A stretch of DNA of 64,000 nucleotides from Bacillota bacterium (GTDB lineage: Bacteria; Bacillota; Sulfobacillia; Sulfobacillales; Sulfobacillaceae): contig JAJYPK010000001.1 of NCBI GenBank assembly GCA_021795465.1, positions 1-64,000 on the forward strand. The letters are read 5' to 3'. The notes below the pieces were generated by a model that ran no database searches, was not told where the DNA came from, and saw only the letters and a program-made list of their open reading frames with translations. Both the position numbers and the translations under genes were made by a program. How positions within the stretch are numbered: position 1 is the first letter of the stretch; each line of letters begins with the position of its first letter. Positions 39,747 through 45,603 of the stretch are shown here, piece by piece.

Positions 39747-42110
39747 ATGCAGGCACCAGGCGCACCAGGAATAGGGACGCATTGGAGTTCCGCCAATAAG
39801 GATGGTGTGGGGACTGCCATCCAGGATGTGTCACGCGTGTGGTTTACGATTGGTCACGGCATTCTTAATGAAGTGTATTTTCCTCGAATGGATATCGCTA
39901 TGATCAAGGACGCCCAATGTCTGGTGCGCCATAGCGATGGTCGATTTTGGGAAGAAAAAATCGATTTGGATCACACCATTGCCTATATAGACGACGAAGC
40001 TCCGGCCTTTCAGGTGACGAGCCGAGAACGCAACGGACTCTTTGTGATCGAAAAGCGGATTGTGGCATCTACTACCAATGACGTGCTGGTGATCCGGATT
40101 GGCATGGACGTGTTGGACGGGGACCCGAATGACTATCGAATTTACTGGATGGTGGCTCCGCATATTGCAAACCAAAGCGATCACCAAAATGCCCAGTTGG
40201 GAAGAATTCGGGGTCAAGTGATCTTAGAGGCTTGGTTTGACAACCTATCACTGGCTGTGGCTACCTCCGTGCCTTTGAAATCGAGCAGTGTCGGGTATAG
40301 TGGGGTCTCGGATGGATGGACGGTCTTAAAGGGTCACGGAGAGCTTGACGAGTATGATGAGGCCACGGACGGCCATGTTGTGCTCACGGGTGAACTTGAC
40401 TGGCAAAAGACGCCCCAACAAACTATTTACGTGGGATTCGGACGCACTCGTCGGGAAGCGCGGTTCAAAACCAATTTGGCTCTCTTGGAGTCCTACGAGA
40501 TTATGGAGCAGCAATACATTAACGGGTGGCATGACTATTTTCAGCGTCTTCATCTGTTGGCACCGGAGCATCGTTGGGCGACGATGCAACGGATCTCGGC
40601 GATGGTGATTAAAACGCATCATGGTAAGCTCTTCCCGGGCGGGATCATTGCGTCCCTTACAGTACCGTGGGGCCCAACAGCGCCTGAAGAGCATATCGGC
40701 GGATACCATTTGGTTTGGCCGCGAGATATGGTCGAGACCTCGTCAGCCCTGATAGCCCTTGGGGATTTCGAAGGGGCCTGTCAATCCCTCAAGTATCTCA
40801 TGGCCACGCAACATGAAGACGGGTCATGGAGCCAAAACTTTTGGATCGATGGCACACCCTACTGGAAAGGCTCCCAATTGGATGAGACCGCATTTCCGAT
40901 CCATCTCGCTTGGCGTCTAGAAACCGAAGGACATTGGCCGTCGGAAGATTCGGTATACCCGATGGTTAAACGGGCCTTGGGGTATCTGGTAGCCACCGGA
41001 CCCGTCACAGCAGAGGATCGCTGGGAAGAAGATGGAGGGTATTCGCCATCCAGTCTAGCCGCCATGATCACGGCTTTAGTGTTGGGTGCTGAACTTGCAC
41101 GAAAGCACCAGGACTTGGTGGTTGCCGACTATGTGCTAAGCGTCGCCGACTATTGGCAACATTATCTGGATGTTTGGACGTTCACCCATGAAGGCAGCGC
41201 CGTCCCGGGTTTTACCGAGTACTACGAACGGATCCATCCCGAAACCGAGGTGGCTCTAGATGGCAACGTCCAGACGGGCTACGTGCCGATTAAGAACCGC
41301 GCACATTTGGATTGGATTGACGAACGTGCCGTCATTGATGGAGGATTTCTCGAACTCGTGCGCTACGGAATCAAAAGCGCGCAGGATCCACATATCCAAG
41401 CCTCGGTAGCTGCCTACGATGCTGCCTTGAAAATTGAGGGACCGTTCGGGCCCCTATGGCATCGCTATAACGGAGATGGCTATGGCGAGGGGCCCGGAGG
41501 GGAACCCTATCAAGGCTCTGGGATCGGTCGGGCCTGGCCCTTATTATCTGGGGAACGAGGGCATTATGCGCTGGCTCTCGGAGAAGACACCGCACCGTAT
41601 CTTCAGGTCATGGCAGGGAGCGCCACAGCGGGAGGCATGATTCCCGAACAGGTCTGGGATGCCCCAGACATTCCCGAAGCAGGACTTCAATTCGGGCGTC
41701 CGACCGGCTCGGCCGCTCCGTTAGTCTGGGCGCATAGTGAGTTTATCAAGTTGCTCCGGAGTTTTGAAGATCAGGTGGGCTTTGAGTGCTATGACCCAGT
41801 CCAGAAGCGATATCGAAACGGATCCGACCCGTATCGCGGGGTCGTAATCTGGCGTTTTAACCATCGTCGACGCCATTGGCGCGAAGGGGATCATGTGGTG
41901 CGGATTGTTGTGGATGCGCCGGCTCGGGTATTGTGGACCAGCGATGGATGGGTTACCCACAGCGAGGCCGTGGCAGTATCCAACGCACTCGGGGGATTCT
42001 GGATTGACGTGGAGGTCGACGCCAGTGATGCCATCGAATTCACCTTTTATTGGACCGCGTCTGCCCGCTGGGAAGGTCTCAATTACGGGCTTATCCGGGC
42101 GTCACAATAA
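39747..42110 (+). CDS. Glucoamylase-type glycoside hydrolase (GH15)
   Basis: The roughly 787-residue protein has an N-terminal beta-sandwich and a C-terminal (alpha/alpha)6 barrel. The barrel shows GGYHLVWPRDMVETSSAL, QNFWIDGTPYW and RWEEDGGYSPSSLAAMI, the last bearing a conserved Glu, matching bacterial GH15 glucoamylases/glucodextranases that release glucose from alpha-glucans. There is no signal peptide, so it probably acts on internal glycogen or imported oligosaccharides. ATG 39747 is chosen for its AAAGGGG spacing. The end overlaps the convergent exporter gene by 20 bases. Confidence 0.9.
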   Translation: MQAPGAPGIGTHWSSANKDGVGTAIQDVSRVWFTIGHGILNEVYFPRMDIAMIKDAQCLVRHSDGRFWEEKIDLDHTIAYIDDEAPAFQVTSRERNGLFVIEKRIVASTTNDVLVIRIGMDVLDGDPNDYRIYWMVAPHIANQSDHQNAQLGRIRGQVILEAWFDNLSLAVATSVPLKSSSVGYSGVSDGWTVLKGHGELDEYDEATDGHVVLTGELDWQKTPQQTIYVGFGRTRREARFKTNLALLESYEIMEQQYINGWHDYFQRLHLLAPEHRWATMQRISAMVIKTHHGKLFPGGIIASLTVPWGPTAPEEHIGGYHLVWPRDMVETSSALIALGDFEGACQSLKYLMATQHEDGSWSQNFWIDGTPYWKGSQLDETAFPIHLAWRLETEGHWPSEDSVYPMVKRALGYLVATGPVTAEDRWEEDGGYSPSSLAAMITALVLGAELARKHQDLVVADYVLSVADYWQHYLDVWTFTHEGSAVPGFTEYYERIHPETEVALDGNVQTGYVPIKNRAHLDWIDERAVIDGGFLELVRYGIKSAQDPHIQASVAAYDAALKIEGPFGPLWHRYNGDGYGEGPGGEPYQGSGIGRAWPLLSGERGHYALALGEDTAPYLQVMAGSATAGGMIPEQVWDAPDIPEAGLQFGRPTGSAAPLVWAHSEFIKLLRSFEDQVGFECYDPVQKRYRNGSDPYRGVVIWRFNHRRRHWREGDHVVRIVVDAPARVLWTSDGWVTHSEAVAVSNALGGFWIDVEVDASDAIEFTFYWTASARWEGLNYGLIRASQ

Positions 42111-42828
42111 GGAGCACGCTTGACAGCAGAATGACACCAATCACCAGGGGACGAAATATTTCCGGGCGGATCCGGCGATGTAGAGCCTTTCCCGTCCAGG
42201 CACCCATGATGATGGCGGGAATCGACGGCAGTGACCACAATAAGGTTTGCCACCCAAGCAAGTGACGGGCCCAAAAGAGGCCAAATTTGGCACCGGTCAT
42301 AATGACGTAGAGCAAGGCCAAGCTGCCAATGAATCCTTCGGGACTGACATCGGGGCTCAGCACGAAAAGCGAGAGGAGCGTGCCGCCAATGTTCGATAAG
42401 GCGCTAACTCCCCCAGCCAGAATCCCGACCGGACCACTTAACCAGGGGGCTAACCCAGAAATACGATGACCGCTAATTCGTTGATAGATCTCATAACTCA
42501 CAAAAACTAGCGCGATAATGGCAATGATCCAGTCTAATCCATGGCCGGAGACCACCACGAGAAAATGGACGCCAACCACGATGCCCAGGAGGACCCAAGG
42601 GAGGGTCCATAGAGCACGACGCACTTTCCAATGCTTACGATAATTGAAGAACGTAATCAACGCATTAACTAAAAACATTGGAGTGCTAAACGATACGACT
42701 TGGCGAGCGGGAAACCATAAGGCCAGCAACGGCATTACCAAAAGTCCCCCTCCGACACCGATGCTGTTGGTGGTGATGGCGGCTAGAAAGCCGGCTGCTG
42801 CCAGCGCAATCATCCACATTATCGCCAT
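42091..42828 (-). CDS. TauE/SafE (TSUP) family exporter
   Basis: The 245-residue protein has seven to eight spans. GFLAAITTNSIGVGGGLLVMPLL and GILAGGVSALSNIGGTLLS are the duplicated family motifs. TSUP members move sulfite, sulfoacetate or other organosulfur anions. Sulfite export would suit a sulfur-metabolising acidophile, but the substrate is not shown. GAGGTGA precedes the ATG. Confidence 0.85.
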   Translation of the reverse strand: MAIMWMIALAAAGFLAAITTNSIGVGGGLLVMPLLALWFPARQVVSFSTPMFLVNALITFFNYRKHWKVRRALWTLPWVLLGIVVGVHFLVVVSGHGLDWIIAIIALVFVSYEIYQRISGHRISGLAPWLSGPVGILAGGVSALSNIGGTLLSLFVLSPDVSPEGFIGSLALLYVIMTGAKFGLFWARHLLGWQTLLWSLPSIPAIIMGAWTGKALHRRIRPEIFRPLVIGVILLSSVLLIVTPG

Positions 42829-42888: not shown

Positions 42889-42923
42889 AAAAAAGGTCCC
42901 GAACCTAGAGCCAGGTCGGGGCC
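42889..42923 (-). terminator. Intrinsic terminator of the cysteine-rich small gene
   Basis: On the minus strand GGCCCCGACCT pairs with AGGTTCGGGACC (one bulge) and runs directly into six T. It lies about 40 bases after the stop of the 53-residue gene. Confidence 0.85.
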
Positions 42924-42964
42924 TTCGAGGGGCTCTTATGAAGTGGGCATTGGTTTAAGGGTGT

Positions 42965-43126
42965 TTAAAGAAAGAAATCTGGGACCCACCACCGTAAGTG
43001 ACACACACAATCATTTTGGCATCGTTGACAAGCGGAACAGATGTCTTCGACGCATAGGGGACTCGAACAATCTAAGCATTCGGCCGTGGCTCCTTGCCCA
43101 CAGGCACAAAGTGGATCTGCGCTCAT
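42965..43126 (-). CDS. 53-residue cysteine-rich, probably zinc-binding protein
   Basis: ATG is preceded by GGGAGG at six bases. The product holds ten Cys in its middle 40 residues (CACGQG, ECLDC, PLCVEDIC, SACQRC, NDCVCH). This is a dense CxC/CxxC pattern like B-box or treble-clef zinc fingers. It then ends WWVPDFFL. A tight terminator follows and a hairpin covers its ribosome site, so it behaves as an independent regulated unit. No family was recognised. Confidence 0.7.
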   Translation of the reverse strand: MSADPLCACGQGATAECLDCSSPLCVEDICSACQRCQNDCVCHLRWWVPDFFL

Positions 43127-43133
43127 AACTCGC

Positions 43134-43154
43134 CTCCCAGTCAGATGCTGGGAG
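43134..43154 (-). promoter_or_regulatory. Hairpin sequestering the ribosome-binding site of the cysteine-rich gene
   Basis: On the minus strand CTCCCAG and CTGGGAG form a perfect 7-bp stem with a 7-base loop. The second arm contains most of the GGGAGG Shine-Dalgarno sequence six bases before the ATG. Translation may therefore depend on melting this stem, by heat or by a bound factor. Confidence 0.5.
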
Positions 43155-43202
43155 ATAGCATGGCACTTTGGGTTATCTGTTATGCAAATTCTGGCATACG
43201 AT

Positions 43203-44177
43203 TTATAACAACGATCGCACGAGCGAGGGATCCAGGTTGCCCCCGCTTAACACGGCGACTATGCGTCGGTTTGAAAACAGATGCTCCGAATCTCCCAACA
43301 CGGCCGCCACGCTTGCAGCTCCCGAAGGTTCCACTAGCAACTTATGGCGGAATAACAACCAGCGCATCGCGTCCAGGATGGCTTCATCAGAGACCGTCAC
43401 CAAGTGGTCCACTAGAGTCGTCACAATGGGATAGGTGAGATGTCCTAAGCTTAGGGTTTTGATTCCATCGGCAATAGTCTCGGTGTGCTCAAGCACGACC
43501 CGCCGGGCTTCACTTCGCGACAAAAAGGCTTTTGGAGCGCCCGCTGCTTCCACACCCACGACCTGAACCTGGGGATTGACGGCTTTTATGGCGGTGGCAA
43601 TTCCAGAGATTAGGCCCCCTCCACCAATCGGTACGACCACCATCTCTACGTCAGGCCATTCGAGAAGAATTTCCAAACCTATCGTGCCTTGCCCGGACAT
43701 CACCAATTCATCATCATAGGGAGGCACAAAAAAGAAGCCCTGCTCCTCCGCAACCAATTTCGCTCGATCCAGGCGAGCCTGGCTCGTGGTTCCGCAGAAC
43801 TCGACTTCGGCCCCATAACCGGAAATGGCTTGGATTTTGGCTTGTGGTGCCGTCTCGGGGACCACGATCCGTGCAGCGATGCCAAAGTGCCGGGAAGCCC
43901 AAGCCACTGCCTGCCCGTGATTACCAGATGAGGCGGTCACGACTCCCGGCAAGGGCTTTCCAGCCTGGCGAAAATGGTCATACACGCTCGCGATCTTATT
44001 GTAGGCTCCCCGAATTTTAAATGACCCGGTCACCTGGAGATTCTCTGGTTTAAGGCGCAACTCTGCTCCTTCAGGTACCGGCCCGCTGCGGGTGGACCGC
44101 AGGGGCGTGTGGTGAATCACTCCCTCAAGGCGAGTTCTTGCCTCTTTTATGCTATCTAAGCTGGGGGCCAGGGTCAT
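43203..44177 (-). CDS. Threonine/serine dehydratase-type PLP enzyme
   Basis: The 324-residue fold type II PLP enzyme shows LQVTGSFKIRGAYNKI with the Schiff-base Lys. TASSGNHGQAVAWASRHFG and the phosphate loop PIGGGGLISGIATA follow. There is no C-terminal regulatory domain, so it resembles catabolic TdcB or serine/threonine racemase-dehydratase rather than IlvA. The ATG overlaps the preceding stop as ATGA, implying coupling to the small unknown gene upstream. Confidence 0.88.
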   Translation of the reverse strand: MTLAPSLDSIKEARTRLEGVIHHTPLRSTRSGPVPEGAELRLKPENLQVTGSFKIRGAYNKIASVYDHFRQAGKPLPGVVTASSGNHGQAVAWASRHFGIAARIVVPETAPQAKIQAISGYGAEVEFCGTTSQARLDRAKLVAEEQGFFFVPPYDDELVMSGQGTIGLEILLEWPDVEMVVVPIGGGGLISGIATAIKAVNPQVQVVGVEAAGAPKAFLSRSEARRVVLEHTETIADGIKTLSLGHLTYPIVTTLVDHLVTVSDEAILDAMRWLLFRHKLLVEPSGAASVAAVLGDSEHLFSNRRIVAVLSGGNLDPSLVRSLL

Positions 44178-44599
44178 GATAGGGTCCACCAGATGGGACT
44201 ACTTTTACTCGGCGGATAGGAGAGAATGTCCTCGATTCGGTGTGTTTGTCGGCGGACTTTTTTGGCTAAACCGACGGAGAATGCTCGTGTGTCGTATTCA
44301 ATGGTTTTGGGCCGATAATGTTCTTTCACGTCGGACAGAAACGCGGCAATATCTCGACCGGCTTCTTGCCACTCCGACTCGGAGAGCAAGGATACATAGC
44401 GGCCTCGCCACATACTGAGCCGTACGGTAATTTTCTTGAGCCACACGACCGTTTGGGATCGTTCACCAAGTCCATGGCGCTCCATGAATGTGGTTAAGGC
44501 CTGGGCATCATGGTCTTTAGCACCCCAGATGACCATATCCAAAAAAATGCTACTGGTATCCCGCGATAGTGGCGGTTTGTTGTCATGAATGGATTCCAT
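44174..44599 (-). CDS. Unknown protein coupled to the dehydratase gene
   Basis: I start at MESIHDNKP because GAGGAG lies six bases before it; the product has 141 residues. It appears soluble and mixed alpha/beta. A stretch VVWLKKITVRLSMWRGRYVSL is followed by helical sequence. Family not recognised. Its stop overlaps the dehydratase ATG (ATGA). It lies about 100 bases after cysE. Confidence 0.6.
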   Translation of the reverse strand: MESIHDNKPPLSRDTSSIFLDMVIWGAKDHDAQALTTFMERHGLGERSQTVVWLKKITVRLSMWRGRYVSLLSESEWQEAGRDIAAFLSDVKEHYRPKTIEYDTRAFSVGLAKKVRRQTHRIEDILSYPPSKSSPIWWTLS

Positions 44600-44700
44600 A
44601 TCGTGTCTCCTCTGAACGGTGTAGGGACTCTCATGCTGCGGCGAGATGTTGTGTGTCGCGCCATGAGAAAGATCCGGGATCTCACGGTTATTGTAACATC

Positions 44701-45603
44701 TTATGGCGTGCCAGATTTTAGTTGAATTTTCGGTTGGGCGATGACCCGGGAGTACGCGGGGACACTCTCGGTGAGCCATACGTTACCCCCGATCACACTC
44801 CCTTCGCCAATGATCGTGGTCCCGCCCAAAATCGTGGCGCCGGAATAGATCACCACCCGATCACCAATGGTTGGATGGCGTTTTTGTCCACGAATGATGT
44901 GTCCATCTTCATCACGCGGAAAGTTTAAAGCACCCAGCGTTACCCCTTGGTAGAGCGTGACTTGGTTGCCTACCTCAGTGGTTTCGCCGATGACGACCCC
45001 GGTTCCGTGATCGATGAAAAAACTCGTTCCAATGCGAGCACCGGGGTGGATATCAATCCCAGTTTCACTATGGGCAATCTCTGTCATTAACCGGGGCAAT
45101 AAGGGGACTTCATATTCCCATAGGCGATGGGCTAACCGATACACCATCACCGCGTAGAGACCCGGGTAACTAGAGATTATCTCGTATCGATCGCGGGCGG
45201 CCGGATCGCCATTAAAGGCGGCATCCAGGTCTAACGTAAGCCCCTGGAGTATCAGCGGCAGATCTTGCACAAATGTCAACGCCATCTCGAAAGCTTCGGA
45301 AAGCCGCGGGCATGCCGTCATCCCGACCTCGCAACTATGGGGATTGGCCCGATGGATTTGATGCGCCAAATTCCAAGTTACCACGCCTAACAGTTCTAAT
45401 CGCGCATTGCGGCGTGAGCCTTCGACCGCATCCGACCATGCATGTTGCATTGGAAATAATAGGCATTCAAGATGCTCAATTAAACGCACGGTGGCACTTC
45501 GAGTCACCGCTGAAAACCCATTTCCATCATGAAGGGGATGGGGGTCGTGCTGGCTTAAGTTCGCAATGACACGGGAGAGACTATCGATGTCGAAGGTGTT
45601 CAT
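44701..45603 (-). CDS. cysE: Serine O-acetyltransferase
   Basis: The 300-residue enzyme acetylates serine for cysteine synthesis. The N-terminal helical SAT domain (about 1-180) includes FNGDPAARDRYEII and SSYPGLYAVMVYRLAHRLW. The left-handed beta-helix follows with DIHPGARIGTSFFIDHGTG, VVIGETTEVGNQVTLYQG and GATILGGTTIIGEGSVIGG. AAAGGA precedes the ATG. It lies 23 bases after the M20 dipeptidase. Confidence 0.92.
   Translation of the reverse strand: MNTFDIDSLSRVIANLSQHDPHPLHDGNGFSAVTRSATVRLIEHLECLLFPMQHAWSDAVEGSRRNARLELLGVVTWNLAHQIHRANPHSCEVGMTACPRLSEAFEMALTFVQDLPLILQGLTLDLDAAFNGDPAARDRYEIISSYPGLYAVMVYRLAHRLWEYEVPLLPRLMTEIAHSETGIDIHPGARIGTSFFIDHGTGVVIGETTEVGNQVTLYQGVTLGALNFPRDEDGHIIRGQKRHPTIGDRVVIYSGATILGGTTIIGEGSVIGGNVWLTESVPAYSRVIAQPKIQLKSGTP

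Follow-up and report, generated by a model that had tools for sequence, protein, structure and literature searches.

A conserved cysteine-rich mini-protein gene of the order Sulfobacillales with a leader predicted to pair with its own ribosome-binding site

Introduction

Is a short open reading frame crowded with cysteine codons, on the reverse strand of a Sulfobacillales contig, a genuine gene, and if so, what might it encode and how might its translation be controlled? The question arises in a window of 64,000 nucleotides, by which we mean the whole stretch of DNA that was analyzed. A preliminary description of this window had singled out the frame as a free-standing mini-gene with a concealed ribosome-binding site.

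Results

Conservation of the reading frame

Read on the reverse strand, the frame (Table 1) translates as MSADPLCACGQGATAECLDCSSPLCVEDICSACQRCQNDCVCHLRWWVPDFFL, a protein of 53 aa whose ten cysteines all fall within residues 7 to 42, in agreement with the earlier reading of this strand. That standard gene callers would overlook it, as was also proposed, is doubtful, as the usual length limit of such programs lies below 53 codons with a strong Shine–Dalgarno (SD) sequence. Of the 42 genomes of the order, 35 carry a homolog according to a profile search, and the 112 genomes from elsewhere in the class yielded none; a protein search placed homologs in nearly all genomes of the same family and in the order's other families. 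Across approximately 400 genomes of the phylum, matches were confined to two, both belonging to that family, and about 396 gave none; a tblastn search of plasmids for the gene returned no match. Wherever present, the gene occurs once per genome. Four of the seven genomes of the order that lack it are more than 90% complete. In two of these four, G117 and G027, the dehydratase gene that commonly lies upstream is in place, with the cysteine-rich gene absent beside it, and the other two, of genus g3, carry only a more distant dehydratase (43–44% identity). At the G117 locus (L089), a possible ferredoxin-like frame was observed downstream of the dehydratase, on the opposite strand.

Within the genus, dN/dS is 0.038 (17.5 synonymous and 4.5 non-synonymous differences), and values of 0.03 to 0.06 were obtained for several other pairs; two close pairs gave 0.27 to 0.34, based on few changes. 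The frame is thus conserved in relatives, with its cysteine pattern retained, and the open reading frame is a real gene under purifying selection; lack of conservation, which the preliminary description had named as grounds for refutation, did not apply. A literature search found no paper on it. Its products constitute a new, unnamed, lineage-specific family, even though the general kinds to which gene and leader belong, a small cysteine-rich metal-binding protein and an SD-masking leader, are known.

Possible identities of the product

Alignment of 26 homologs revealed that C9, G10, C17, C20, C25, C30, C33, R35, C36, C40, C42, W47, and P49 are invariant and that C7, the only cysteine not fully invariant, is retained in more than 90%. 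Positions 28 and 39 alternate between aspartate and histidine among homologs, which might reflect interchangeable metal ligands. Together with the ten cysteines, these residues would bring the number of possible ligands to as many as twelve, which would suffice for three zinc ions. No family cut-off was passed by the gene or its leader in Pfam, NCBIfam, or Rfam. A profile search of the PDB returned L32, ferredoxin, and PsaC at chance level only, and these candidates were set aside.

The best Pfam match was the ANCHR-like B-box (PF22586), with an E value of 0.0013 in one homolog over residues 6–28; the gathering cut-off of 27 bits was not reached, the best member scoring 19.2 bits, and at E values up to 1, three of the 26 members matched, the window protein not being among them. 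The pairs C7/C9, C17/C20, C25/[DH]28, and C33/C36 could fit the cross-brace order of PF22586, as judged from the alignment (an AlphaFold model built from four sequences reached a pLDDT of 47 and was unusable). Zinc is therefore a plausible metal, a reading that we infer from the cysteine spacing, the sub-threshold B-box match, and the alternation at positions 28 and 39.

An iron–sulfur cluster in the C-terminal half, which would make the protein a miniature redox or Fe–S carrier instead of a zinc finger, appears rather unlikely. The series C30-x2-C33-x2-C36-x3-C40, present in all homologs, reproduces the bacterial ferredoxin spacing CxxCxxCxxxC, weak matches to 4Fe–4S families were obtained (HydB 0.019, AsrA 0.033, Fer4_4 0.12), and ferredoxin and PsaC matches (0.18 to 3) cover profile positions 26–43. 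However, all 4Fe–4S family matches, even the best, lie below cut-off; bacterial ferredoxins usually carry a proline after the last cysteine of the motif, where these proteins have [VILFA]-C, and the N-terminal cysteine pattern is unlike that of ferredoxins. We consider it less probable still that the protein buffers metals in the manner of a bacterial metallothionein, serving life in an acid habitat rich in metals and being translated upon exposure to them. Its share of cysteine (10 in 53 aa) would suit such a role, as would the acid, metal-rich habitats that record titles, so far as they are informative, indicate for its relatives, but no bacterial metallothionein family was matched in Pfam or NCBIfam (only a eukaryotic metallothionein, E 0.46), and the copies are never multiplied in any genome. 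Moreover, the strictly invariant glycine, arginine, tryptophan, and proline and the aromatic C-terminus argue for one fixed fold and partner over a metal sponge.

Gene neighborhood and transcription

The gene stands last in a cluster ordered Nramp transporter, M20 dipeptidase, serine O-acetyltransferase, 142-aa protein, serine/threonine dehydratase, and cysteine-rich gene; the dehydratase gene ends 76 nt upstream on the same strand (Table 1).

Table 1. Features of the cysteine-rich gene and its upstream neighbors in the window
Feature	Coordinates	Strand	Remarks
Intrinsic terminator	42889..42923	-	GC-rich stem 42923..42895, U6 run 42894..42889
53-aa cysteine-rich protein gene	42965..43126	-	ATG 43126..43124, TAA 42967..42965; conserved frame, dN/dS 0.038 within the genus
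SD-masking hairpin (predicted)	43133..43155	-	5' arm UCUCCCAG 43155..43148, loop CAUCUGA, 3' arm CUGGGAGG 43140..43133 with SD GGGAGG
Candidate -10 box GCATAA	43180..43185	-	similar element in relatives
Serine/threonine dehydratase (PALP family)	43203..44189	-	directly upstream; homolog in 22/28 loci
Conserved protein, about 142 aa in relatives	44174..44779	-	between cysE and dehydratase in 17/28 loci; no Pfam or NCBIfam match
Serine O-acetyltransferase (CysE/EpsC type)	44701..45603	-	above NF041874 cut-off; in 21/28 loci

The terminator attributed to the gene was recovered, and terminator-like hairpins follow the gene in several relatives as well. Of 23 family homologs, 16 have a -10-like box between -45 and -66, compared with 11 of the 164 control leaders; this pattern was chosen after the sequences were inspected, and no good -35 element was found for the candidate promoter. 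Because this box recurs and several genomes carry the gene without an adjoining dehydratase, the gene probably has its own promoter. The description of the gene as free-standing accordingly holds in part: its terminator and probable promoter support it, whereas the conserved upstream cluster and the proximity of the dehydratase do not.

The gene downstream varies by lineage and may encode TauE, a SLAC1-type exporter, an FMN reductase with HxlR, or others. In genera g1 and g11 the position after the gene is held by TauE/SafE (42091..42828 in the window) and in g8 by SLAC1/TDT (L041), which are unrelated anion-exporter families.

Ten cysteine codons beside cysE and near exporters of the TauE or SLAC1 type could also suggest a leader peptide that senses cysteine, with ribosomes stalling on these codons when cysteine is scarce and thereby controlling the neighbors. 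This is extremely improbable, given that the frame is the last of the cluster and has a terminator of its own behind it, that the downstream gene differs between lineages, and that residues other than cysteine are under selection as well.

Structure of the leader

The claim that the SD sequence GGGAGG lies within a perfect hairpin of 7 bp was borne out by the sequence, by folding predictions, and by covariation in relatives. The repeat CTCCCAG/CTGGGAG forms 7 bp, or 8 bp when a G–U pair is counted, with a predicted energy of -12.4 kcal/mol, and the predicted probability that the SD is unpaired in the window leader is approximately 0.01. Perfect 7-bp inverted repeats occur about once per 1.3 kb in the window, near the rate in shuffled sequence, and are thus not rare in themselves. 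Among 184 control genes taken from the same loci as the homologs, two matched the window gene in the strength of the SD stem and 182 had a weaker one.

Across all homologs, strict statistics on stems overlapping the SD were by themselves unconvincing (p 0.07), since the conserved helix frequently stops at the start codon, with only part of the SD inside it; they were replaced by folding z-scores and an arm-swap test. The mean folding z-score of the family leaders was -1.35, compared with +0.12 in the 184 control genes (p 6e-6), and z fell below -2 in 33% of family leaders versus 3% of controls. MAFFT alignments of the leaders mis-paired the arms, and base-pair counts were not taken from them. 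As stem sequences vary from genus to genus, the arm-swap test was alignment-free: in silico hybridization paired the upstream portion of every leader with its own SD region and with those of other leaders. Native combinations averaged -14.0 kcal/mol and permuted ones -11.2 kcal/mol (sd 0.46), an advantage of about 2.8 kcal/mol that none of 5000 permutations reached (genus-level Wilcoxon p 0.0015). The corresponding native–permuted difference in control genes was -0.04 (sd 0.44), so base composition does not explain the native advantage. Species of genus g5 illustrate the pattern, with the differing arms GACAA/TTGTC, GGTA/TACC, TGAA/TTCA, and AAACCCCCTCC/GGAGGGGGTTT; these different stems appear to serve the same job. 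Such comparisons establish the predicted SD-masking pairing as real, covarying, and under selection though its sequence changes.

The hairpin is absent from four of six sampled g8 leaders (L018, L024, L101, and L102) and weak in g9 and g10, while in g6 the paired arms flank or enclose the SD and do not cover it; masking is therefore not needed everywhere. Leaders widely carry a CUACC-like motif; it sits in the loop, not the stem, in L103 and reads GCTAG, CCTAG, or GCTACC in f2 and f3 leaders. Searching Rfam gave no match above the gathering score, the only hit being ctRNA_pGA1 (20.3 bits versus 45).

The repeat is symmetric and separates the putative -10 box from the start codon, which would also suit a DNA operator bound by a repressor, and in L022 and L025 the repeat begins 2 nt after CATAAT, such that the first arm might not be transcribed. 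Nonetheless, the repeat sequence differs wholly between genera while the pairing is kept, behavior that a fixed operator would not show, and the loop lengths vary; an operator in place of an RNA structure is very unlikely.

Temperature response, one of the two kinds of response proposed earlier, was not supported by in silico folding across temperatures. The in silico probability of an unpaired SD in the window leader stays between 0.01 and 0.04 from 25 to 70 °C, and the SD is likewise predicted to be paired over this range in three other leaders. In silico SD accessibility is near flat in nine of ten leaders of relatives, with only the unstructured leader L024 changing. An RNA thermometer, in which heat opens the hairpin and the protein is then made, would be in keeping with an SD paired directly before the start codon; against it stand the flat predicted accessibility in the window and stems that pair GGAGG with CCUCC-like arms and lack fourU and ROSE features, and we judge it highly improbable.

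Discussion

Taken as a whole, the explanation that we consider probable is that the Sulfobacillus lineage possesses a core gene, specific to the order, for a small folded metal-binding protein, most likely binding zinc, whose translation would be held down by the leader hairpin. The first half of the protein, CxCG-x6-CxxC-x4-C-x2-[DH], could form a B-box-like or cross-brace zinc knuckle, and the second half, C-x2-C-x2-C-x3-[DH at 39]C-x-C, may supply further ligands, with the invariant aromatic tail WWxPdFF as a putative packing or docking site. At the RNA level, the short mRNA leader is predicted to fold such that the SD pairs with an upstream CUACC- or CUCCC-like arm, which would keep ribosome entry low unless the hairpin is opened. 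Heat would be a less likely opener than a protein or a different RNA. We infer translational repression, a signal that opens the hairpin, and a tie to the neighboring genes of cysteine, serine, and threonine metabolism; control by metal, by redox state, or by the protein itself is possible.

A bolder version, speculative and on balance unlikely, is that the leader constitutes an RNA switch not yet described, its structure kept while its sequence is free, and that it would permit translation of an order-specific three-metal mini-protein only upon a signal from metal, thiols, or redox state, or through self-binding of the protein to the leader, in connection with cysteine and serine metabolism.

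A single-copy gene that is strongly selected throughout an order of acidophiles and absent from the other genomes searched points to an unnamed, lineage-specific need. Its leader is a clean example, open to testing, of translational masking that would be conserved by structure and not by sequence, in a group whose post-transcriptional control is little known.

Several known systems provide points of comparison. The first two thirds of the ANCHR-like B-box model align with one homolog, with paired cysteine knuckles followed by C-x2-H, whereas the CxxCxxCxxxCxC block and the aromatic tail are absent from the model. Bacterial [4Fe–4S] ferredoxins of the Fer4 type share the spacing from C30 to C40 but differ in that the mini-protein has a single motif, no proline after its last cysteine, a different N-terminal half, and no significant match. 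Bacterial metallothioneins of the SmtA/BmtA type are similar in size and cysteine share; in contrast, the mini-protein has strictly conserved glycine, arginine, tryptophan, and proline residues with an aromatic tail, and matches none of their families. RNA thermometers such as fourU and ROSE resemble the leader in placing the SD in a hairpin immediately upstream of the start codon and in their limited sequence conservation, but the strong GC pairing with the SD and the absence of predicted melting distinguish it: in silico, the window leader does not release its SD through the growth range, as members of that class do. With an SD that is predicted to pair with the upstream leader, in a pairing conserved through covariation though not in every lineage, it instead has the features of an SD-sequestering cis-regulatory leader.
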